Shown here: piece by piece, positions 8,559-23,598 of the stretch | Layout: every line of letters begins with the position of its first letter | Position numbering within the stretch: position 1 is the first letter of the stretch | Assembly (NCBI GenBank): GCA_022708055.1 | Contig: JAKIZK010000018.1 | Location: 1-33,168 of the forward strand | Reading direction: 5' to 3' | Origin: Bacteroidota bacterium | GTDB lineage: Bacteria > Bacteroidota > Bacteroidia > Chitinophagales > Chitinophagaceae | Length of the DNA stretch: 33,168 nucleotides | Made by a program: the position numbers and the translations under genes | The notes under the pieces: generated by a model | What the model was told of the DNA's origin: nothing | What the model saw: only the letters and a program-made list of their open reading frames with translations | The model's database searches: none

Positions 8559-9068
8559 ATGAATAAGCCTTTATATCAGTTTTTTACAAAAGATCATCGT
8601 CGTATTGAACAGCTTTTGGATCAGGCCTGTGAAAACCCAGATGTGATTGATTTGGAATATTATCATCAGTTTCGCACGGGCATACTGAAGCATATTAAAA
8701 TGGAAGAAAAAATACTTTTCCCTGCGGCTCAAAGAGCTAATGGAAATATTCCCATTCCACTAGCTGCTAAGCTGAGATTAGACCATGGTGCGATTACTTC
8801 ATTAATGGTGCTGCCCCCTACGCTTGATGTAATAAAAGTAGTGCGTATTATTCTGGATGAGCATGATTTACTGGAAGAGGAGCCGGGAGGTATGTATGAT
8901 AAATGTGAGCAATTGACGGAGTTTGAAACGGATCATATTATCAAACAATTGGAGGCCACTTCTGAAGTGCCCGTGCACCCACCCAATGAAGCAGTTTATG
9001 CAATGCAAGCAGCGAAAAATGCATTAAGAAGAGCCGGTTATGATTATGAAGAAATGATCAATAGTTGA
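8559..9068 (+). CDS. Hemerythrin-like HHE domain protein
   Basis: A 169-residue cytosolic protein with a four-helix hemerythrin/HHE fold. Candidate ligands of a diiron (or heme/metal) centre are H13 (DHRRIE), H36, H45 and E49 (HIKMEEKILFPAA), H76 (LDHGAIT) and H102 with nearby acidic residues (DEHDLLEEE). Proteins of this type bind O2 or react with NO or peroxide, and some (RIC/YtfE) help to repair Fe-S clusters; which role applies is not known. It lacks the N-terminal ScdA domain of RIC proteins. It stands about 1.3 kb upstream of the Crp/Fnr-respiratory cluster, a suggestive but unproven association with O2 or NO biology. It converges on the beta-propeller lipoprotein with an 8-nt gap. Confidence 0.85.
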   Translation: MNKPLYQFFTKDHRRIEQLLDQACENPDVIDLEYYHQFRTGILKHIKMEEKILFPAAQRANGNIPIPLAAKLRLDHGAITSLMVLPPTLDVIKVVRIILDEHDLLEEEPGGMYDKCEQLTEFETDHIIKQLEATSEVPVHPPNEAVYAMQAAKNALRRAGYDYEEMINS

Positions 9069-10365: not shown

Positions 10366-11094
10366 GTGACCTCAGTTTCTTTACAAAAATCTGAATGTTT
10401 TACTTGTAAAGTAAGAAGTTGCTCCATATTGGATACTTGTGGCAATGAAACACTGGCAGCTGTAAGCAATTATAAACTTTCAAAGAGTATTCGTAAAGGG
10501 GAGAAATTGTTTTCCGAGGGTGACCCGATTCGTGGTGTGTGTTTTATTAAAAAAGGGTATGTAAAAATTGAACTCAATGGCAAACAGGGCAGACCCTTGA
10601 TATTAAAAATTGCCGGAAGAGGCGCAATTTTGGGATATAGAATTAACTCAAAACATACATATTATTCTTTTTCTGCCACCGCTGCATCCGATGTGCAGTA
10701 TTGTTATATTCCCAATGAATCATTTAATGTTATTCTTCAAAAATGCCCTGATTTAAAACTGCAGATCATTAATCAGTTACTTGATGATTTGGAGATAGCC
10801 GAGAAGAAAGCTATTTATCTCGCACATAAAACGGTAAGAGAAAAAATTGCAGAGGCTTTATTATTATTAGCAGAAGCCTATCAGTATGAAATAAAAAGAC
10901 AAAGTTTCAAAATCAATCTTTGCCGCCAAGATATTGCCGACCTGGCCGGTACTACCAAAGAGCAGGTTTCAAAAACGCTAAAGGAGTTTGAAAAAGAAAA
11001 ACTGATTAAATGTTCTGCAAAAAAATTCAGTTATATAAATATTCAATTATTAAAAGAAGTAGTTGGAAACACCTATGCTCCACACTCCATATAA
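10366..11094 (+). CDS. Crp/Fnr-family transcription regulator with N-terminal cysteine cluster
   Basis: A 242-residue regulator. The start is GTG at 10366, retained because it includes a cysteine cluster C11-x2-C14-x4-C19-x5-C25. A cyclic-nucleotide-binding-type jelly roll follows (about 35-150; EGDPIRGVCFIKKGYVKIEL), then a dimerization helix and a C-terminal winged helix with HTH residues CRQDIADLAGTTKEQVSKTL (about 186-205). FNR-type proteins use such N-terminal Cys residues plus one internal Cys for an O2/NO-sensitive [4Fe-4S] cluster; the spacing differs slightly from E. coli FNR, so a cluster is inferred. It is the first gene of the respiratory cluster, 133 nt upstream of the subunit IIa-like gene, and is the obvious candidate to control it. 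Confidence 0.9.
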   Translation: MTSVSLQKSECFTCKVRSCSILDTCGNETLAAVSNYKLSKSIRKGEKLFSEGDPIRGVCFIKKGYVKIELNGKQGRPLILKIAGRGAILGYRINSKHTYYSFSATAASDVQYCYIPNESFNVILQKCPDLKLQIINQLLDDLEIAEKKAIYLAHKTVREKIAEALLLLAEAYQYEIKRQSFKINLCRQDIADLAGTTKEQVSKTLKEFEKEKLIKCSAKKFSYINIQLLKEVVGNTYAPHSI

Positions 11095-11437: not shown

Positions 11438-12361
11438 ATGAGTTTATTAAGTCCTGTTGAAGGTTGGTACTACAAGAAAGTATCCAAAGACGAAAAAATG
11501 TGGATGGTAATTGCGCTCATTCTTTGTCTCTCCTTATTTGTATGGATGATTATGTGGCATGTGTATGGAAAACAAAATCCATCGAGCATCACATATCGTA
11601 CCAGCACAGCTGAGTTTGGAAAACTAAGTGAAGCGTATATCAAAAAGAATATGATAGGCGCTGACAATGGGGTACCAGTAGTACGGCCCGATGCAAATAG
11701 TGATGTATTCCTGCTTGCTGAAATGTGGCGCTGGAGTCCTGTACTCGTTTTGCAGAAAGATCAATCCTACAAGTTTCATATCTCATCTAGAGATTTGGTA
11801 CATGGATTTTCCATTCAGCCTGTCAATATGAATTTTCAGGTTTACCCTACCTATGATTATGTTCTTGAATTTAAACCTACCGAGTCAGGCGAATTTAAAA
11901 TCATCTGCAATGAGTTTTGCGGCATTGGCCACCATGCCATGATTGGGAAAATAGTAGTTATAGAAAAAGATGAAGATTTAAAATTGTATGGGTATGAAAA
12001 TTTTAAGAAAGCAGCATCCACCGACACGGCAGCAAATAAAGACGTACCCTTAACTGATGCAGAAATGGCATTGATGGGTGAACAAATATATACACTTAAA
12101 GGATGTGGTGCTTGTCATAAAACCGATGGTAGCAGCCAGATAGCGCCTAGCTGGAAAGGACTTTTTGGCAAAGAAGAACATGTAATTGAGAATGGCAAGC
12201 AAATAAGTGTGAAAGTGGATGAATCATATATCAAAGAGTCCATCAAAGATCCAACCAAAAAGAAAACAGTAGGTTTTGAAAATACACCCATGCCGGTATT
12301 CCCCCTTACTGATGATGAAATAGCGCAAGTCATTGCCTATATCAAAACATTAAAAAACTAA
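11438..12361 (+). CDS. Heme-copper oxidoreductase subunit II with CuA site and fused cytochrome c
   Basis: A 307-residue membrane-anchored periplasmic electron-entry subunit. One transmembrane helix (about 21-43) as in B-family subunits II. The cupredoxin domain carries a full CuA ligand set: H122 (DLVHGF), C157, E159, C161, H165 and M168 in the motif CNEFCGIGHHAM. A C-terminal cytochrome c domain (about 205-305) has CGACH (C223, C226, H227) and the distal Met285 in NTPMP. Electrons from a periplasmic donor would pass heme c to CuA to subunit I. The gene is 18 nt upstream of the subunit I gene, and so translationally close. All metal sites are intact here, in contrast with the unusual residues of subunit I. 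Confidence 0.95.
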   Translation: MSLLSPVEGWYYKKVSKDEKMWMVIALILCLSLFVWMIMWHVYGKQNPSSITYRTSTAEFGKLSEAYIKKNMIGADNGVPVVRPDANSDVFLLAEMWRWSPVLVLQKDQSYKFHISSRDLVHGFSIQPVNMNFQVYPTYDYVLEFKPTESGEFKIICNEFCGIGHHAMIGKIVVIEKDEDLKLYGYENFKKAASTDTAANKDVPLTDAEMALMGEQIYTLKGCGACHKTDGSSQIAPSWKGLFGKEEHVIENGKQISVKVDESYIKESIKDPTKKKTVGFENTPMPVFPLTDDEIAQVIAYIKTLKN

Positions 12362-12379: not shown

Positions 12380-14047
12380 ATGTTTCGTACTTGCGATATT
12401 ACAGGATTTAAAGTTGACCTAAGGTCAGAAAAATTGATAAGGGCAAATGCTGTTTTTGCAGTCATTTCTTTATTACTTGCGGTAGTGGCAGCCATACTGC
12501 TTGTTTTTACAAGATACCAGCCGGTACATCTATTAGGGGCTGAGTGGTATTACCGCTTAGTTACTTTTCATGGTTTAAATGCACTTATATTCTGGATAAT
12601 CTTTTTTGAAGTAGCAGGGTTATACTTCGGCTCTACTGTTATTTTGAATACAAGATTTTGCGCACCCAAGCTCGGGTGGTTTGGCTTTGCATTGATGGTG
12701 GCCGGTCTTGTATTGTCCAATGTTATTATTCTGATGGGCAAGGCCGACGTTATGTTAACCTCTTACACACCGTTAAAGGCTCACCCATTGTATTATCTGG
12801 GCATCATATTATTTGCTGTGGGCGCATTGATTGCCGTTATTTTATTTTTTGGAAATTTGATGATAGCCAGGCGTGAAAAAACTTATGGCGAATCGTTGCC
12901 GCTGGTTGCTTATGGATTAATGACGGCAGCCATCATTGCAGTTATTACACTGGCTACCGGTGCTATCATTTATATCCCTACCTTCTTGTGGTCGCTGGGT
13001 CTTATTGAAAACGTAGATCCGGCTATGTATAAACTCATTTGGTGGGGGCTGGGTCACTCTTCTCAGCAAATCAATGTAGCGGCTATGGTTTCTATCTGGT
13101 ACATGGTTTCATTCCTGACCGTAGGCGGCACTTCTATTAATGAAAAAGTTTCCCGATCAGCATTTGTATTATATATTCTCTTTATTTGCCTGGCATCTGC
13201 ACACCATTTACTTACCGACCCCGGTGTTAGTAGCGCCTGGAAGGTTTGGAATACCAGCTATGCCATGTATCTTGCTGTATTAGCTTCCATGATTCATGCT
13301 TTTGCTGTTCCTTCTTCATTTGAGTCAGCACAAAGGCGATGGGGTTATAATAAAGGATTGTTTCAATGGCTTTCAAAAGCGCCGTGGGGCAATCCCGCTT
13401 TTGCCGCAATTATTTTGGCAGTTATAGGCTTTGGTTTTATTGGTGGAACCACCGGTGTCATCTTTGGTATGGAGCAAACCAATATTATTGTTCACAATAC
13501 GATTGCAATTCCCGGTCACTTCAAGGGTACGGTAGTTATAGGTACTACACTTACATTTATGGGAATCACTTATTATCTGATACCACTTATTTTCAGAAGA
13601 AAAATTGTAGGATTTAAGTGGGCTAAAATACAGCCCTGGATGTTTTTCATTGGCATTGCTTTGTTGTCTATTTCAATGATTGTATTAGGGCAAATGGGCG
13701 TGCCTCGCCGGCATTGGGATTCTACATTTTCGGGCGGACCTTTTACACATAATTTTAATCCGGCTGTAGATTTCTTCTGGGCTTTAATGATGCTGGGTGG
13801 TGTACTTGCATTTCTGGCAACGGTAATCTGGATATTAATTGTGGTTGTCTCCGTATTCTTTGGGCCAAAAGTGAATGGGCCGGCAGATATGCAACTTACC
13901 ATATCGCCTCTTGCACCTGCAGCAAAATCGCATAAAGGATTTGAAGCACCCGGTACGCTGGTGCTTACAATCATATTTTTACTGGTATTTATGGCACTCT
14001 TTTTCCTCAACTGGAAATGGCTGGCCGCTACCTGGAATGTAAACTAA
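12380..14047 (+). CDS. Heme-copper oxidoreductase subunit I with atypical active site
   Basis: A 555-residue, roughly 13-helix core subunit, closest in layout to B-family (ba3-type) enzymes. Conserved: low-spin heme ligand H64 (TFHGLNALIFW), CuB ligands H226 and H275-H276 (ASAHHLLTDPG), and high-spin heme ligand H380 (IPGHF). Unusual: helix VI reads GHSSQQIN, so the Tyr that is normally cross-linked to H226 (from H-P-x-V-Y) is absent and Gln residues stand there; and K382 replaces the second His of the usual H-F-H, normally the other low-spin heme ligand. The DNA is clean at both sites, with no frameshift. Loss of the Tyr is a feature of NO-reducing members of the superfamily, so an NO reductase or other non-standard activity is inferred. 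No subunit III is nearby. A hairpin follows the gene. Confidence 0.9.
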   Translation: MFRTCDITGFKVDLRSEKLIRANAVFAVISLLLAVVAAILLVFTRYQPVHLLGAEWYYRLVTFHGLNALIFWIIFFEVAGLYFGSTVILNTRFCAPKLGWFGFALMVAGLVLSNVIILMGKADVMLTSYTPLKAHPLYYLGIILFAVGALIAVILFFGNLMIARREKTYGESLPLVAYGLMTAAIIAVITLATGAIIYIPTFLWSLGLIENVDPAMYKLIWWGLGHSSQQINVAAMVSIWYMVSFLTVGGTSINEKVSRSAFVLYILFICLASAHHLLTDPGVSSAWKVWNTSYAMYLAVLASMIHAFAVPSSFESAQRRWGYNKGLFQWLSKAPWGNPAFAAIILAVIGFGFIGGTTGVIFGMEQTNIIVHNTIAIPGHFKGTVVIGTTLTFMGITYYLIPLIFRRKIVGFKWAKIQPWMFFIGIALLSISMIVLGQMGVPRRHWDSTFSGGPFTHNFNPAVDFFWALMMLGGVLAFLATVIWILIVVVSVFFGPKVNGPADMQLTISPLAPAAKSHKGFEAPGTLVLTIIFLLVFMALFFLNWKWLAATWNVN

Positions 14048-14126: not shown

Positions 14127-14864
14127 ATGAATTTTCGCAGATTTTGGATATTACCTTTTTGCATATTGCTTTGTGGATTCAATTTTCCGAATGAAAAAAA
14201 ATTTCTCTCACAAAAAATAGAAAACATTTCTGTATTTGATTCCAAAGGAAATGTCTTTGAATTATTTAGTTTAATTGGCAATAAGCCGTTGATCATTTCA
14301 CCTGTTTATACGAAATGTCCTTCAGTTTGCGGTATCATCAGTAATGGAGTACAGGTTGTTGTCAATAAACTTGGAAGCTTGGGCGATGATTTTAATATCG
14401 TTAGTTTTTCATTTGACAGTACAGATAAGGTTGAAGATCTGGCCTTTTACGAAAACCGCTGGAAAATGGACGGAATTCATTGGAAAACCATTTCTGCAAA
14501 TGCAGCACAGATAAAAAAACTGATGCATTCTATAGATTACCAGTATGAATACGATTCTGTAACAAAGGAATTTAATCATCCTTCCATCCTTATTGTGCTT
14601 ACTCCATCCGGAAAAATTTCAAGATACATTTATGGTATCAACCCATCAAAACGTGACTTGAAACTTGCAATCATTGAAGCGATGGCAGAAAAATCAAGAC
14701 CCGGTTTAATTAAAGGCTTTTACTTGCGTTGTTTTGGATATGACCCCATAACTAAAACTTACAAATTGGACTGGCGTTTTATTATTTCTACTTCTGCCGG
14801 ATTATTAATGATTGGATTGATAAGCTGGATTTTTATTAAATCATTTATAGTTTCAAAAGATTAG
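14127..14864 (+). CDS. SCO1/SenC-family copper chaperone
   Basis: A 245-residue exported thioredoxin-fold protein. A hydrophobic N-terminal segment (about 6-20) is followed by the Sco domain with the copper-binding CPSVC (C64, C68) and the distant histidine H151 (NHPSILIVL), the full Cu ligand set; a C-terminal membrane helix (about 217-238) anchors it. Sco proteins help to assemble the CuA centre of subunit II, which the neighbouring gene encodes with all ligands. It starts 12 nt after the terminator-like hairpin and ends 2 nt before the cytochrome b fusion gene, so those two are translationally coupled. Confidence 0.92.
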   Translation: MNFRRFWILPFCILLCGFNFPNEKKFLSQKIENISVFDSKGNVFELFSLIGNKPLIISPVYTKCPSVCGIISNGVQVVVNKLGSLGDDFNIVSFSFDSTDKVEDLAFYENRWKMDGIHWKTISANAAQIKKLMHSIDYQYEYDSVTKEFNHPSILIVLTPSGKISRYIYGINPSKRDLKLAIIEAMAEKSRPGLIKGFYLRCFGYDPITKTYKLDWRFIISTSAGLLMIGLISWIFIKSFIVSKD

Positions 14865-14866
14865 TA

Positions 14867-16813
14867 ATGAATATCAAATCCGATACCCGTGAAATTGCAA
14901 AAGAAAAGACATTTGGACATCAGCTGTTTCAGAAGTTTGCATCTTTTTTTGGAAAAGTATATGCTACTGAATATAATCCACTTTATTATCTTGGCAGTAT
15001 TGCTGTTTTACTTTTTGTGGTGGCTTGTATTTCGGGAATTTATATTTTTATTTTTTATAATGTAAATCCACGTCATGCTTGGGAATCGGTAGAAGCTATT
15101 TCTGCCAATGTATTTAATGGATGGATGCGCAGCATTCATCGTTATGCTTCTGATTTGCTGGTCATCTTTATATTAATGCACTTATTGCATACTTTGTTTA
15201 CTTCCAAATTTAAAAGACTGATTTCATGGATCAGTGGTATTATTTCTTTTCTGATTGTAATACTTATTGGCGTTACCGGTTATATGTTGGTATGGGATCA
15301 AAAAGCAAAACTCACAGGCTATCTTACTGCAAAATTATTTTCAGCATTACCCATTTTTGACCCTTCCATAGCCGGTGCTTTTTTATTGAATGATCTTACT
15401 ACTGTAGGCGGATTTTTTAAAGTTGCATTATTTGGCCATATTGTTTTTTCTTTGATTACCGTAATTGTTATTTGGGTACATGTACTTCGTATTTCAAAAC
15501 CCAAAATTTTTCCTCCCAAAAAATTAATTTACTATGTACTCATTGCGCTGGGTATTATTTCAATTGCTTTTCCCGTTGTAAGCGACCCGCCTGCTCAGTC
15601 ATCCAATCTTCCATTAAACACCACATTTGATTGGTATTATTATTTCGGCTATTATCTCATGAAGTTATTTTCAGTAAATCAAAACTGGATGATACTGATT
15701 GGCTCGGGTATTCTTTTATGTATCATACCCTATATTTTAAAAAGGAAAAACAATTCACCCGTTACAATAGATCTTGATAAGTGTGATGCCTGTAATCTTT
15801 GTTCCTACGATTGTCCCTATGAAGCCATTGATATGCTGGAAAAAAATGGCGAACGCAAAGCTATTTTGTCGCCGGATAAATGTGTAGGCTGTGGTATTTG
15901 TATTGGCTCCTGTGGTGAGCATGCCATCACACATCCATTGTTCCCTCAATTGAATTTTGGGGTTAATCAAAAATCAGACGTAACCATATTCAGTTGCAGC
16001 TATTTTCCCAAATTTGAAATACCCGGAAATTTAAAATCAACTCATTATCAGGTGCCTTGTACCGGAAGCATCATGCCGAAAGATGTACAAAGGATCCTGG
16101 AACAAAATAGTAATAAAGTGGCCATACTTGGTTGCGAAGATTGCTATTACCGCTTGGGAAAAACCTGGACAGTCAATCGGTTTTTGAGAAGGAGAGCACC
16201 GTCGTTTTCAAGAAAATTTGATGCAGCCAGGGTCAGGCATTTTACTTTAACACAGTATAGTAAAGAAAAATTAATTGATTTTGCATCTGCTCCGCTGAAT
16301 GAAGATATAAAGAAGCATGAGTTTTCAATTGTTGATCATAAAAAAACAAAGCCGGTGTTTGCTGTTTTAATTCTGGCGGCTTTTTTTACTTTGATGATTC
16401 CATTGAGCCGCACGGTAGTGCATTTCTTTAACGCCAATGAAAAGACGTTGATTGTAAATTTCAAATACATATCATCGCCAGAGGAGTATGAGACATCATC
16501 ATCTACCGCAAAACACATGCAATCTAAAAACCCGGTTGTAAAAAAGCGTAGCTCAGTTTTTTTAAAAGTGTATGCCTCAAATGATCGTTCTCTTATTTAT
16601 GAAAAAGAGTTTAAACCACGTGGACTCAGGCAGGATATCGCCATGTTTATTTTTACACAGTTAACTATTGTGCCAGATCAGGTTGATGTGGAGTTGCAGG
16701 AAACCGCCTTTCCCGATAAGCATTTTAAACTAAGTAATATATCGCTTAAAAAGGGTGATGGAACATTTGTTGTTTTTAAAGATGGAAATCTGTCATTGGC
16801 GGGAGCCAACTAA
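14867..16813 (+). CDS. Cytochrome b / double [4Fe-4S] ferredoxin / MvhD-like fusion protein
   Basis: A 648-residue membrane protein with an unusual domain order. Residues 38-240: cytochrome b6-like part with five helices and two H-x13-H pairs for hemes b (H91/H105 and H191/H205), plus GVTGYMLVWDQ. A periplasmic segment FDWYYYF (254-260) recalls the PEWY region; helix F is at about 275-291. Residues 302-350: two [4Fe-4S] motifs (C306, C309, C312, C316; C339, C342, C345, C349). Residues 370-445: MvhD/FlpD-like domain with C377, C398 and C423-x2-C426. A last helix (about 496-520) leads to a 125-residue periplasmic tail. Charge distribution places the Fe-S domains in the cytoplasm. It probably links quinone and/or a cytoplasmic donor to the adjacent heme-copper enzyme; direction of flow is unknown. 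Confidence 0.88.
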   Translation: MNIKSDTREIAKEKTFGHQLFQKFASFFGKVYATEYNPLYYLGSIAVLLFVVACISGIYIFIFYNVNPRHAWESVEAISANVFNGWMRSIHRYASDLLVIFILMHLLHTLFTSKFKRLISWISGIISFLIVILIGVTGYMLVWDQKAKLTGYLTAKLFSALPIFDPSIAGAFLLNDLTTVGGFFKVALFGHIVFSLITVIVIWVHVLRISKPKIFPPKKLIYYVLIALGIISIAFPVVSDPPAQSSNLPLNTTFDWYYYFGYYLMKLFSVNQNWMILIGSGILLCIIPYILKRKNNSPVTIDLDKCDACNLCSYDCPYEAIDMLEKNGERKAILSPDKCVGCGICIGSCGEHAITHPLFPQLNFGVNQKSDVTIFSCSYFPKFEIPGNLKSTHYQVPCTGSIMPKDVQRILEQNSNKVAILGCEDCYYRLGKTWTVNRFLRRRAPSFSRKFDAARVRHFTLTQYSKEKLIDFASAPLNEDIKKHEFSIVDHKKTKPVFAVLILAAFFTLMIPLSRTVVHFFNANEKTLIVNFKYISSPEEYETSSSTAKHMQSKNPVVKKRSSVFLKVYASNDRSLIYEKEFKPRGLRQDIAMFIFTQLTIVPDQVDVELQETAFPDKHFKLSNISLKKGDGTFVVFKDGNLSLAGAN

Positions 16814-18174: not shown

Positions 18175-21100
18175 CTATGGAATTATCTTCACAATACCAG
18201 CCCCGTGGTATGAATGATATTCGCCATTATACATGGCATCTGCATTTACCGGTCCCATTTTATAATTGCCGGGAGATATCGCCCTTACTGCATAATAAAA
18301 AGTTTGTTTCTGATTAAAGGCATCTGTAAAGAAGTGTATTCGATCGTCACGTATATCCAATGCAACAGGAGTTGCTGCATCTTTTATCCAATCCATTCCC
18401 GGAATTTCTTTTGTTCTTGGATTTTCAATTTCAAATCCAGCAGGAAGTAAATCTGTAATTACAATATTGTCAACAGGCGTATTAAAAGTTTTTTCTAGCG
18501 TGATACCCACTACTATTAAATCATTCTGTTTAAAAGTATGATTGGTAATCAACTTGCCATTGCGGTCATAAAATTGCTTTCTTACTTTTAAATAGCTGTC
18601 TTCTTCTTTATAGCTGCCAGTACTACTTACACCGGCTGCCTGCCAGAAATAATACAGTTTACCATTTCCTTTCGTTACAATCTCCACCTGATTATTTCCA
18701 AGCGCTTTCATGTCGCCGGTCCATTGCCCGCCATCCACTTTTGCAATCAGTTTCCCATTTACTTTTATTTCTGCGGTAGCGGTTGACTGGTTAGCGGCTT
18801 TTGCATGTTTACCTAAGGCAAGTAAGGCAAAGGCTCTTTCTTGTGTACTTAGCCATTGTCTGGACTTTAGTTTATCGGCTACATGTTTTACCATAGTGCC
18901 TATTTGTGCATTGGCAGGATCTGTATCTATCAATGCATTTAATGCGATAGCTTCATCTCTTACATCAGAGTAATAACTACCACCCGTTTGCGCTACTGAT
19001 TCTTCTCCGGTAAAGGCGGCAGGTAAAATTGAAGCAAAATTTCTTTTATCGCCTGCAGTTGCATAAGTTGCTGCCAGCAAGTATCGGCTATCCAGCGCCA
19101 GTACATTCTGGTTTGCTTTATAATAATTCATAGCCGGTACATTGGGTCTTCCTGCTTTTGCCAATACATATAAACTATAAACTACCTCTTTGGGCGCTAT
19201 CTTTTTTTGTTGAGTTCGATTATAGAAATAGGTAATGGTTTCTTTGTTTCGTAGTTTGTTATTAATATAATTAAGCATGGTTTCAAGCATGCTGTTATCT
19301 ACATCAAACCCTGCTCTTCTTGCTTCCAGCAAAAAATGTGCTGCATAAATGGTGCTCCACCAGTCTTCTTTATCCATCCCATCCCACAAGGTAACAGCGC
19401 CATTATACAATTGTCTCATCTTGATGATGCGAATGGCTTCTATAATATTGCTATTGGCGTTTAGCTTGTTTTGCGATTTGTTTAGTGATAATAAATCGGC
19501 AAGGTCACCATAGTACAACTGTGGAAAAGCAGCGGATACGGTTTGCTCAGTACATCCATAAGGATATTGCACTAAGTACTGTAATTGCGATGAAAGCTCA
19601 AGTACCGGAGAACGGCTTACTGTCAAACTATAACTGATGGTGCCTGGCATATATTCGTTTAAGCCGATATTTATTTTTTGTGAGCTTCCTCCTGCAATGG
19701 ATCCTGCTCCGGTTGATTTTTGTAGTGTTGATGGTGGTCTTACTGATATTTCGGTTACGTCAGTAAACTTTTCGCCCAATCCTGATACAGAAACGGAAAC
19801 CTTTGAAGTGTTTACTGAAGGATCAGCCACAATTTTAAACTGCGCTTTGCTTTCGCTATTGCCGGAAAGACTTACCGATTGACTATTGCTACCTACAACT
19901 TTCAGCGGTGCATCTACTTGGATAGTGGCCGAAACGGTTGCAGATTTTGCAGTAGTATTAGTAAGCGTTACCGGTACACTCACCGTATCGCCCGGACTTA
20001 AAAACCTGGGAAGCGCTGTGCTGATCACAATTGGGTCTGCAACGGTCATTGTGTTATCTGCAGCACCAAAACTTTGACCTTTGTAAGAAACGGCCATCAA
20101 TCTCAGCTCGCCACTAAATTGTGGAACATCAAATTCAAAAACGACTTCTCCATTTCCATTTGCTTTTTTAATTCCACCCCAATAGCTCATTACTTTCACT
20201 CTTTTTGATGGCATTGGGTTGTTTCTTTTCGATGCCTCTGCAAAACCATCACCACCAGTACTGCTCATCTTGGCCCTAACTTCATCAAACAATAATGGAT
20301 AAAGATCAAATGCACTTACCTGTAATGCTTTTTTCTGATAGAAGTATTGATAAGGATCGGGTGTTTTAAAGTCACTTACCTGCAGTACACCATTATCTAC
20401 AGCAGATAATGTAACATAGCTGCCCGGTGTAGCTTTTACTGTTACTTTTTGATGTGTTTTGGAACGAACATTTTTTTGTGCAACAATACTCGTTTCTATC
20501 TTTCTGTTTTTTTCTTCAACGGGCACATTTTTAAAACCATGCGCTACGGTTAATGGAATATCTGAGAGTTCGTGAGGTTTGATGAGTGTAGCTGTTATAT
20601 AAACATTGGGAACATGCTCACTATTCAGTTTCAGATTTAGGGATGCCTCCCGTTTGCTCACATCTACGTATTGATAAGAGATTACACGATCTGTTTCCAT
20701 AGTAACCAGCATTTTGCCGCTAAATGGCGTTGTGAAATGTGCAACTACTTGCTCTCCGGTCTTATATGTTTTTTTATCAATTTCAATATTGATATTCCCT
20801 TCTTTATTTACTTCAAAGGAAGTATTGGTGCTGCCCCAGCTTCCATAGCTGTAAAATGACTTACTTACATAGCTATTGGCACCCGAATTATAAATTCTTA
20901 CTTCATAGTCGCCTGGTGTTTTTGGAATATATACAAATGAACCGGTGCCATTCACAGCTACTTCTTGTGCTGTCATCATTTTATCTTCTTGTTGCGATTC
21001 ATAACGAAAATAACTGCCACTCTTGGCTAGTACAGTTCTGTATTCGTGTTTTATTACCTGAATATTTGCTGTTGCACTAATACCTCTGCCATCTTTATTG

Positions 21101-23598
21101 GCTGCTGCCAGTTGAAATTTTACGGGTTGATTGAGCGGATAATAATAACTCCAATCCTGCTTGATGCCAAAAAAAGTGGATTGTGTATAAATTGGAGTAT
21201 TAGTAAGCCGACTAACCGGACGCCCTGTTTCATCAAATACGGTTGTATAAAACGAAGCCTGCAAGGCGCCCATATTGGAATATATAACGGGCACTTCATA
21301 TTCTAATTGTGCATTTCCATCAACATCGGTAGTGCCCTCTTTTATAGTCTTGTCAAAAAATGTAGTTTGATTGGTAAGTCCAAAATCATAACCTTCAAAC
21401 TGCTTTGATGAAAAATATTTCTGGCTTATCTGTATTTCAGTTTCGTATTTTCTATTGGCAGCCGGAGGTCCAAAAAAGTTAACGGCATGAATGTCCAGTT
21501 TCGACTTGTCGCCGGCCTTCAAAAATTCTTTATCCAGCTTTGTGGTTACTTTTATTCTGTCAGGCACAAATTCCTCGACCATAAAATTTTGTGAGGCAAG
21601 CAAAACATCATTACTACTATAAACTTCCAGTGTGTAGCTGCCCGTTATTGCATTCATTGATAAATCAACATTGCCTTCCACGGCGCCTTCCTCATTCAGG
21701 CTCTTACGAAATGATTTTAGCTCCTTACCATTGGGCATTAAAAACTTAAATTTAAGTGGTACATCACCCGGGTTTTTCCAATTGCCATCTCTTACAATAA
21801 CGGAAAAATTTATTTTTTCTCCGGGGCGATATACATCTCTTTCTGCATATACAAAAGCATCAAAGCCTGAAGGATTATTACGTTTGCCACCTACATCAAA
21901 TCTGGAAGTGTTCACTCTTGTATTGTTAAAAGGCAAGTAATTAAAATCATCTGCTGTTTTTGCAATAACCATTGCTGGTTTAAAACCAGAGAAATCTTTT
22001 TTGGTATATGCAATTTCTGCCACACCATCATTATTGGTGGCACCGGATCCTATCAGTTGATTATTGGAGCTATAAACAGAAACATTAACACCCGAAACCG
22101 GTGCAGCCGTTTTAAGAGAATTTGTAAAAACAAATATTTTATCATTGCCTTCTTTTGTTATCAATCCCAGATCAGAAAGTGAAATAAATCGGCTGTCTCT
22201 TACCCAATAGTCATCAGCGGAGCGAATCATTACATGGTACACTCCTTTAAAGTCTGAAAGCCGGTCTTCAAACTGAGAAAAATTCAATAAACGTCCTCCG
22301 CCACTTTTGGGGAGCGAACGGGTATCTATTTCTTTTTCAAAAATCACATCACCCAATATGCCATCGTTGTTTCCATAACTTTCGTTGTAGCCATCATAAT
22401 ATTCATCACCCTCGTAGCTCGCATACTGCGGGCCACTTTGGGTTTCCTGTGGCTCATATCCATATCGTTGCGCCATCAGTAAGTTGTTTTCATAAATTTT
22501 TGAAACAATGAGTTTTATTTTTGGCACATTCGTTATTGCTATTTCAATATTTTTTCCTCCTTTTTTTGAAAGATAAACAGCTTTGCTGTTTGTAAAATTG
22601 ATACCGGCTTCCATTTCGCCAAAACCGATACCTCCGGTATATTCCTCTTTCATGGTGCCGCCCAACTTTCCTCTGGGTCCTTTTGCTATTGTAAGTGCAT
22701 AACTCTTTTCTGTGTCAAACTTATCGCTGCGAATATTAAAACCATATTCAGTAGGTTCTACTGTAAAGGCAACAGCCGGATCAAATTTGATATAAGAAGC
22801 AATACTTTCTCCATTCAGTTGCTGGCTGGTTGACACTTTTACCACACCATCAGTTCCGTTGTGTTCAGCTTCTGTATTTTGTATGCTTAAAACATAGGGA
22901 GAAGGAATCGTAAGCGAACTGGTTATTTTTTCAGCAGTGGTTGTATTCCCTTTTTCAGGCTTCAATCCTTTATCCAGGCTGATTTTAAGTTCTACATCTT
23001 TATCCTCAGCCTTTATGCCGTTCAGTCGTATGGTTATTTTATTGTCGGGCGAAATAGTTACCATATTAAAATCCGCTTCCCTGCCATCTGCTTTTATTGA
23101 AAGATTTTTCTTCACCATATCGGGGCTGATCAAATAATTAAACGTAAGATCAAGTTGCGGAGTGGCAGTGGTAGTGCTTTCGCCCACCCACAGGGCCTGT
23201 GCATTATTTAACTCCAGCAGAGGTGTATGAAAACTGATTTTATCGCCACCGCTAACCGAGTTATATTTACTATACTTCAACACGGTTCCTTTGATTTTTG
23301 CAGTGTAAGCAGTTGCAGGATTTAAAGGAGTAGCAGGCGAAAAAACTAATTCATCAGGCCCGCTCCAGCGAAAGCGACCCGGTATGGCCGGTTCAAAGCT
23401 GATATAATCAGTAGAGTCCCACGCATTCAACATAGAATCTTTTGCCAAAGAATGATTGAATCGGAAAACAAGGTTCCCCAAAATGGGCACTTCTCCTTTT
23501 GCATTGGTAAAAGACAAAGAGATTGCATTTTTTTTACAAGAAGATAAAAAAACTGCTCCTGAGGCCAGCAGCAGCATTGCAAAAATTTTGATACGCAT
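18175..23598 (-). CDS. Bacterial alpha-2-macroglobulin lipoprotein with thioester motif
   Basis: An 1807-residue lipoprotein: signal peptide with lipobox LSSC (Cys21), then a long array of macroglobulin-type beta-sandwich domains. The MG2-like segment with ERDVYRPGEKINF lies near residue 590; the A2M core with FDVPQFSGELRLMAVSYKG near 1165; and the thioester-containing helical domain at about 1340-1620 has the motif GCTEQ with Cys1349 and Gln1352. Bacterial A2Ms trap proteases that breach the envelope by covalent thioester capture, and are typically paired with PBP1C, which would repair the wall. Here pbpC is adjacent but divergent. Length exceeds E. coli YfhM (about 1650). The terminator is well defined; the promoter is less clear. 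Confidence 0.93.
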   Translation of the reverse strand: MRIKIFAMLLLASGAVFLSSCKKNAISLSFTNAKGEVPILGNLVFRFNHSLAKDSMLNAWDSTDYISFEPAIPGRFRWSGPDELVFSPATPLNPATAYTAKIKGTVLKYSKYNSVSGGDKISFHTPLLELNNAQALWVGESTTTATPQLDLTFNYLISPDMVKKNLSIKADGREADFNMVTISPDNKITIRLNGIKAEDKDVELKISLDKGLKPEKGNTTTAEKITSSLTIPSPYVLSIQNTEAEHNGTDGVVKVSTSQQLNGESIASYIKFDPAVAFTVEPTEYGFNIRSDKFDTEKSYALTIAKGPRGKLGGTMKEEYTGGIGFGEMEAGINFTNSKAVYLSKKGGKNIEIAITNVPKIKLIVSKIYENNLLMAQRYGYEPQETQSGPQYASYEGDEYYDGYNESYGNNDGILGDVIFEKEIDTRSLPKSGGGRLLNFSQFEDRLSDFKGVYHVMIRSADDYWVRDSRFISLSDLGLITKEGNDKIFVFTNSLKTAAPVSGVNVSVYSSNNQLIGSGATNNDGVAEIAYTKKDFSGFKPAMVIAKTADDFNYLPFNNTRVNTSRFDVGGKRNNPSGFDAFVYAERDVYRPGEKINFSVIVRDGNWKNPGDVPLKFKFLMPNGKELKSFRKSLNEEGAVEGNVDLSMNAITGSYTLEVYSSNDVLLASQNFMVEEFVPDRIKVTTKLDKEFLKAGDKSKLDIHAVNFFGPPAANRKYETEIQISQKYFSSKQFEGYDFGLTNQTTFFDKTIKEGTTDVDGNAQLEYEVPVIYSNMGALQASFYTTVFDETGRPVSRLTNTPIYTQSTFFGIKQDWSYYYPLNQPVKFQLAAANKDGRGISATANIQVIKHEYRTVLAKSGSYFRYESQQEDKMMTAQEVAVNGTGSFVYIPKTPGDYEVRIYNSGANSYVSKSFYSYGSWGSTNTSFEVNKEGNINIEIDKKTYKTGEQVVAHFTTPFSGKMLVTMETDRVISYQYVDVSKREASLNLKLNSEHVPNVYITATLIKPHELSDIPLTVAHGFKNVPVEEKNRKIETSIVAQKNVRSKTHQKVTVKATPGSYVTLSAVDNGVLQVSDFKTPDPYQYFYQKKALQVSAFDLYPLLFDEVRAKMSSTGGDGFAEASKRNNPMPSKRVKVMSYWGGIKKANGNGEVVFEFDVPQFSGELRLMAVSYKGQSFGAADNTMTVADPIVISTALPRFLSPGDTVSVPVTLTNTTAKSATVSATIQVDAPLKVVGSNSQSVSLSGNSESKAQFKIVADPSVNTSKVSVSVSGLGEKFTDVTEISVRPPSTLQKSTGAGSIAGGSSQKINIGLNEYMPGTISYSLTVSRSPVLELSSQLQYLVQYPYGCTEQTVSAAFPQLYYGDLADLLSLNKSQNKLNANSNIIEAIRIIKMRQLYNGAVTLWDGMDKEDWWSTIYAAHFLLEARRAGFDVDNSMLETMLNYINNKLRNKETITYFYNRTQQKKIAPKEVVYSLYVLAKAGRPNVPAMNYYKANQNVLALDSRYLLAATYATAGDKRNFASILPAAFTGEESVAQTGGSYYSDVRDEAIALNALIDTDPANAQIGTMVKHVADKLKSRQWLSTQERAFALLALGKHAKAANQSTATAEIKVNGKLIAKVDGGQWTGDMKALGNNQVEIVTKGNGKLYYFWQAAGVSSTGSYKEEDSYLKVRKQFYDRNGKLITNHTFKQNDLIVVGITLEKTFNTPVDNIVITDLLPAGFEIENPRTKEIPGMDWIKDAATPVALDIRDDRIHFFTDAFNQKQTFYYAVRAISPGNYKMGPVNADAMYNGEYHSYHGAGIVKIIP

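Follow-up and report, generated by a model that had tools for sequence, protein, structure and literature searches.

A mainly Bacteroidota clade of putative eNOR-type NO reductases with lysine in place of a low-spin heme histidine

The window, by which we mean the whole stretch of 33,168 nucleotides that was analysed, carries on its forward strand an operon for a heme-copper enzyme with the following genes and features.

10366–11094, + strand: CRP/FNR-family regulator, upstream (cNMP_binding and HTH_Crp_2 domains)
11438–12361, + strand: subunit II of 307 aa, a CuA cupredoxin with a fused cytochrome c (COX2 and Cytochrom_C domains)
12380–14047, + strand: eNOR-type subunit I of the heme-copper enzyme (555 aa; PF00115, 219 bits)
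12569–12571, + strand: H64 in helix II, remaining His ligand predicted for the low-spin heme (aligned to the helix II His of ba3 oxidase; present in 26/26 Lys-clade and 68/68 other Gln-type sequences)
13055–13069, + strand: helix VI segment H226-S-S-Q229-Q230, Gln in place of the cross-link Tyr
13202–13207, + strand: CuB ligands H275-H276 in helix VII (present in 26/26 Lys-clade and 68/68 other Gln-type sequences)
13517–13519, + strand: H380, axial ligand of the high-spin heme (ba3 alignment and sequence counts)
13523–13525, + strand: K382 (AAG), replacing the low-spin heme His of helix X (ungapped PGHFK against PGHFH)
14127–14864, + strand: SCO/SenC-type copper chaperone (PF02630, 34 bits)
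14867–16813, + strand: bc-type diheme cytochrome b with two [4Fe-4S] ferredoxin motifs and an FlpD-like domain (648 aa)

Subunit I is encoded by a single open frame. The sequence of subunit II includes CNEFCGIGHHAM, with a complete CuA motif, and a CxxCH motif at position 223. The cytochrome b/ferredoxin protein has four invariant histidines (H91, H105, H191 and H205) and eight ferredoxin cysteines, and its first half has the bc1/b6f fold. It is probably the electron partner on the quinol side and would in that role oxidize quinol. The fusion of a bc-type cytochrome b with [4Fe-4S] and FlpD-like parts suggests that this protein may be a new type of electron module belonging to eNOR operons. 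The CRP/FNR-family regulator scored 86 bits with the FnrL model, under the cut-off of 300. Elsewhere in the window, a hemerythrin-domain protein is encoded ca. 2.9 kb upstream of subunit II (8559–9068), with relatives near only two of the compared loci (L064 and L065), and a 1807-aa open reading frame lies on the opposite strand (18175–23598, − strand).

The sequence around H226 (13055–13057) is GLGHSSQQIN, with Q229-Q230 at 13064–13069. Alignment with the subunit I of Thermus ba3 oxidase, ungapped through helix VI, places Q230 opposite the Tyr of GHPIVY. The first-pass annotation had reported, at 13036–13090 and in a clean reading frame, the H-S-S-Q-Q segment at H226 and the missing cross-link Tyr, and both observations were confirmed. 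Glutamine occupies the Tyr position in 99 of 107 aligned sequences from independent genomes with identities down to 42%, and is therefore neither a chance substitution nor a reading fault. The other eight are six Tyr-type sequences (ca. 30–32% identity), included deliberately as contrast, and two degenerate paralogs that were set apart before the counts given below. A frame or sequencing fault was also rejected because the same residues recur in many independent genomes and the lysine discussed below is written with two synonymous codons. The scan for relatives was biased, since QQ is part of one of its two peptide patterns; a search of an unbiased sample of 395 genomes of the phylum Bacteroidota, free of the QQ pattern, gave the same split between Gln and Tyr. 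It returned 16 matches at 42–100% identity, the window's own counted, and, separate from these, Tyr-type matches at ca. 30% identity.

A tyrosine supplied by another helix was among the results that the first-pass annotation considered fatal to its reading. In cbb3 oxidases the tyrosine comes from helix VII, at a position that we take to be six residues before the HH pair. At this position the window has Ile269, and the residue is Ile in 26/26 Lys-clade sequences and Ile or Leu in 68/68 other Gln-type sequences, which rules out a helix VII-supplied Tyr. Thus, the helix VI Tyr that marks the O2 reductases of the A and B families (Tyr-I) is replaced by Q230, and the helix VII Tyr of the C family (Tyr-II) by Ile269 if the offset is as we assume.

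According to Table A4 of PMC8756737, eNOR is recognised by Gln in place of the cross-link Tyr, so that the helix VI finding is not new by itself; the Tyr to Gln exchange taken alone is of an already known kind. The same source gives Asn for sNOR and bNOR (CuANOR), Asp for gNOR and Glu for cNOR and qNOR, and none of these residues was found at this position of the window protein. eNOR is named as a B-family-related NO reductase in passages of PMC8756737, PMC11388526 and PMC12569097. The window enzyme resembles eNOR in its Q230, in the cupredoxin subunit II encoded directly upstream, in its distant kinship with the B family and in its broad spread over phyla. It differs from eNOR by the Lys that replaces the low-spin heme His of helix X and, in the window and the crown of its clade, by the cytochrome c fused to subunit II. 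Like sNOR, bNOR (CuANOR) and gNOR it would be a Tyr-less heme-copper-type NO reductase, and it shares with them a cupredoxin subunit II and SCO genes that are often nearby, but Gln stands where sNOR and CuANOR have Asn and gNOR has Asp (Table A4 of PMC8756737).

An AlphaFold2 model of subunit I (pLDDT 88.1) matched ba3 oxidases best among PDB structures, with a TM score of 0.79. The B-family ba3 oxidase of Thermus thermophilus was the best solved match (30% identity over the region) and agrees in fold and ligand layout; it has the helix VI Tyr and a bis-His low-spin heme, whereas the window enzyme has Gln and a predicted His/Lys heme. In a quick tree of 100 sequences, made without bootstrap and subject to a long-branch warning, the 94 Gln-type sequences, which include no nameable biochemically characterised eNOR, stood apart from the six Tyr-type sequences with SH-aLRT support of 100. 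Residues Y241, S303 and H306, which we presume to lie on the single predicted proton channel of eNOR, were invariant in 94/94 of them. Of 571 relatives confirmed in the scan of genome contigs, the best 80 were kept, so more distant members with Lys may exist. Five near-duplicates (97% identity or more) were dropped from 105 sequences, and locus L096 was left out of alignment A2 due to stop codons in the stretch, its stop-free piece being kept as an aligned row.

The more unusual substitution is in helix X and had been overlooked. Heme-copper enzymes bind their low-spin heme through two histidines, one of which, in ba3 and bovine oxidase, is the second His of the helix X motif. The alignment pairs PGHFKGTV of the window with PGHFHLQV of Thermus ba3; the segment G379-H380-F381-K382 (13514–13525) is GHFH in relatives. 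The first-pass annotation was right that H275, H276 and H380 are kept, but its list of ligands was incomplete: of the six conserved histidines of the superfamily five are present (H64, H226, H275, H276 and H380) and the sixth is K382. Position 382 is Lys in 26/26 non-redundant sequences that form one clade, and His in 68/68 other eNOR-like and 6/6 Tyr-type sequences. The Lys clade received SH-aLRT support of 100 in the same quick tree. Its members are 68% to 93% identical to the window protein and belong to Bacteroidota, except for the unplaced bin HR21. Twenty-one members encode this residue by AAA and five by AAG, and the use of two synonymous codons argues that selection on the residue rather than recent copying has kept Lys382. 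In a literature search that covered sources other than the main eNOR paper, we found no report of Lys as low-spin heme ligand of a heme-copper enzyme. Since the features relevant for function are those of eNOR and one of the six histidines is missing, we regard the Lys382 form as a new variant of eNOR and not as a textbook member.

The surroundings of the gene were compared between the two types. The fusion of cytochrome c to subunit II was found in 22 of 27 Lys-clade subunit II reading frames, which make up the crown, and is missing in five basal ones. Lys382 is therefore not tied to the fusion and arose without it. The cytochrome b/ferredoxin gene occurs in 3 of 97 relatives, precisely the three with a window-type subunit I. 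It adjoins 28/28 Lys-clade loci and also 50/67 His-type loci, some with short flanks, and for this reason is no speciality of the Lys clade. A relative of the CRP/FNR-family regulator is encoded upstream in 20/28 Lys-clade loci. A UbiA/heme O synthase-like gene was seen beside the eNOR genes at L086 (9681–10568), with similar genes in 20 other loci, a hint that the enzyme may contain heme o or heme a.

To judge whether the low-spin heme is kept, we looked at the residues that would surround it. H64 and the arginines R443 and R444, presumably the holders of the heme propionates, are invariant in 26/26 Lys-clade sequences and also in the other group. The CuA motif was present in 92/92 subunit II reading frames (some genes were fetched twice), including all 27 of the Lys clade, and CuA would serve little purpose if no heme took up its electrons. 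From the retention of H64, the two arginines and CuA we infer that the low-spin heme has been retained, with His64 and Lys382 as its ligands, rather than lost. Positions specific to the Lys clade were concentrated in helices I, II and IX–XII (13/193, compared with 3/206 for the remaining helices; P 0.009, and 0.016 with position 382 omitted). We take these helices to be the heme side of the fold; because of this assumption, and since the active-site helices VI–VIII are constrained anyway, the clustering is suggestive only. Natural low-spin hemes with His/Lys ligation do occur, and an intense near-infrared MCD band close to 1500 nm is characteristic of them. In the thiosulfate dehydrogenase TsdA, as described in passages of PMC6879331, the His/Lys pair lowers the potential relative to His/Met and the Lys is labile. 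Heme 2 of TsdA has the ligation predicted for the window enzyme, but TsdA is a soluble diheme c-type cytochrome with a fold unrelated to subunit I (PMC6879331).

The eNOR mark, the ba3-like fold and the genomic setting together favour an NO reductase related to the B family, as the first-pass annotation had proposed, with NO as the putative substrate; the other option that it had named, an enzyme with a different substrate, is less likely. NosZ was found in 5/5 Lys-clade genomes first searched, in four of them over the cut-off and in G455 as two adjoining pieces that were each below it. All five also encode an NO-forming nitrite reductase, NirK in three and NirS in two, the NirS of G455 running off a contig end. 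NosZ was likewise found in 10/10 genomes searched that have a His-type eNOR, and so does not set the Lys form apart. NirK scored over the cut-off in 12 of 97 relatives, comprising 3/3 with a window-type enzyme and 9/94 others; the chance of this co-occurrence, calculated by hand and ignoring kinship, is 220/147440 or ca. 0.0015. Two basal Lys-clade loci (L083 and L086) have a complete cytochrome cd1 nirS directly downstream of the operon, in the same orientation and separated from it by 107 and 145 bases, respectively, and other eNOR loci have nirS- or nirK-like genes within the fetched flanks.

COX1-family genes were listed in 15 Lys-clade genomes. Four of these (G455, G486, G487 and G488) showed no other NOR-type subunit I, although G455 also contains an unclassified 189-base fragment at a contig end. 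The remaining 11 encode further heme-copper enzymes, several of them NOR-like or unclassified, and the Lys form is therefore not always the sole NOR candidate. Asn stands at the Tyr position in further enzymes of G000, G038, G095 and G489. The genome of the window itself has a second Tyr-less heme-copper subunit I (L004, C112:17912–19195) with Asn at this position in the motif GHTLVN.

The reading that we prefer, and to which we give somewhat better than even chances, is an eNOR-type NO reductase in which His64 and Lys382, and not a pair of histidines, hold the low-spin heme. Electrons would enter through the cytochrome c and the CuA centre of subunit II and be handed on by the His/Lys heme b to the high-spin heme (His380) and to CuB (His226, His275 and His276). 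Here two NO molecules would be joined to N2O, with Gln230 occupying the place of the Tyr of O2 reductases. Ligation by Lys382 would give the heme an unusual potential and a more labile ligand. That the whole group represents an evolved clade of heme-copper NO reductases with a His/Lys electron-entry heme, breaking the six-histidine rule, seems to us slightly on the probable side.

It is unlikely, though worth considering, that Lys382 is not a ligand of the iron. In that case His64 would leave the second heme, still present, five-coordinate, and NO could bind at the free site, or the Lys could have a role in proton transfer or hydrogen bonding. A charged or hydrogen-bonding Lys would be conserved as well, and heme Lys ligands are labile in the few known cases described in PMC6879331. 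However, a heme left open along the route of the electrons would easily trap NO, and an abandoned ligand position might drift to small or polar residues, whereas Lys is strict (26/26). Loss of the low-spin heme, with electrons taking another route, perhaps aided by the cytochrome c domain of subunit II or by the cytochrome b partner, appears highly improbable. One of the two canonical ligands is indeed gone and the crown of the clade gained a cytochrome c domain, but H64, R443, R444 and CuA are kept and the basal 5/27 lack the fusion. Moreover, in known structures CuA is too distant from the active-site heme for fast direct electron transfer.

We consider it very unlikely that the protein functions as a standard eNOR or O2 reductase in which Lys382 is a neutral quirk of the lineage. 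The remaining active site is eNOR-like and several Lys-clade genomes have other NOR-like heme-copper enzymes, both of which agree with such a view. Against it, the change from His to Lys takes two base changes and was then fixed across sequences down to 68% identity, and O2 reduction is not expected of an enzyme with no Tyr in helix VI or VII.

If the proposed His/Lys ligation is correct, its fixation throughout the clade would amount to a natural experiment that shows how the supply of electrons to NO depends on an axial heme ligand. The variant would also be relevant for nitrogen accounting. Filters that require six histidines would discard the Lys-clade enzyme, and at least one published classifier, as described in passages of PMC3084760, removed every sequence in which one or more of the six conserved histidines of CuB and the two hemes were missing. 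According to passages of PMC12569097, a 2025 survey found nir and nosZ without nor in 9% of those Bacteroidota that carry denitrification genes, and it excluded sequences without conserved ligand domains. We conjecture that this ligand-domain filter removed the Lys clade, in which case some Bacteroidota recorded as nir plus nosZ without nor may carry the Lys-form enzyme.

Some eNOR loci have a degenerate heme-copper-like paralog that keeps the helix II His and an HYH motif in helix X and lacks the HH pair of CuB. It was found at L052 (6357–7811), L053 (6218–7639), L054 (11986–13449), L061 (10710–12128), L062 (11191–12603), L088 (9707–11218), L097 (5734–7221), L116 (4382–5788) and L117 (9715–11193), and fused to SCO at L083 (4630–6639) and L084 (9670–11694). 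This paralog is perhaps an accessory heme subunit. Another type, encoded at L006, L162 and L196, is a NorB-like protein of ca. 450 aa with an HH pair, a THGTHITVAHAMG-like motif and no helix VI His; in G038 the NorB-like gene lies ca. 6 kb from nosZ.
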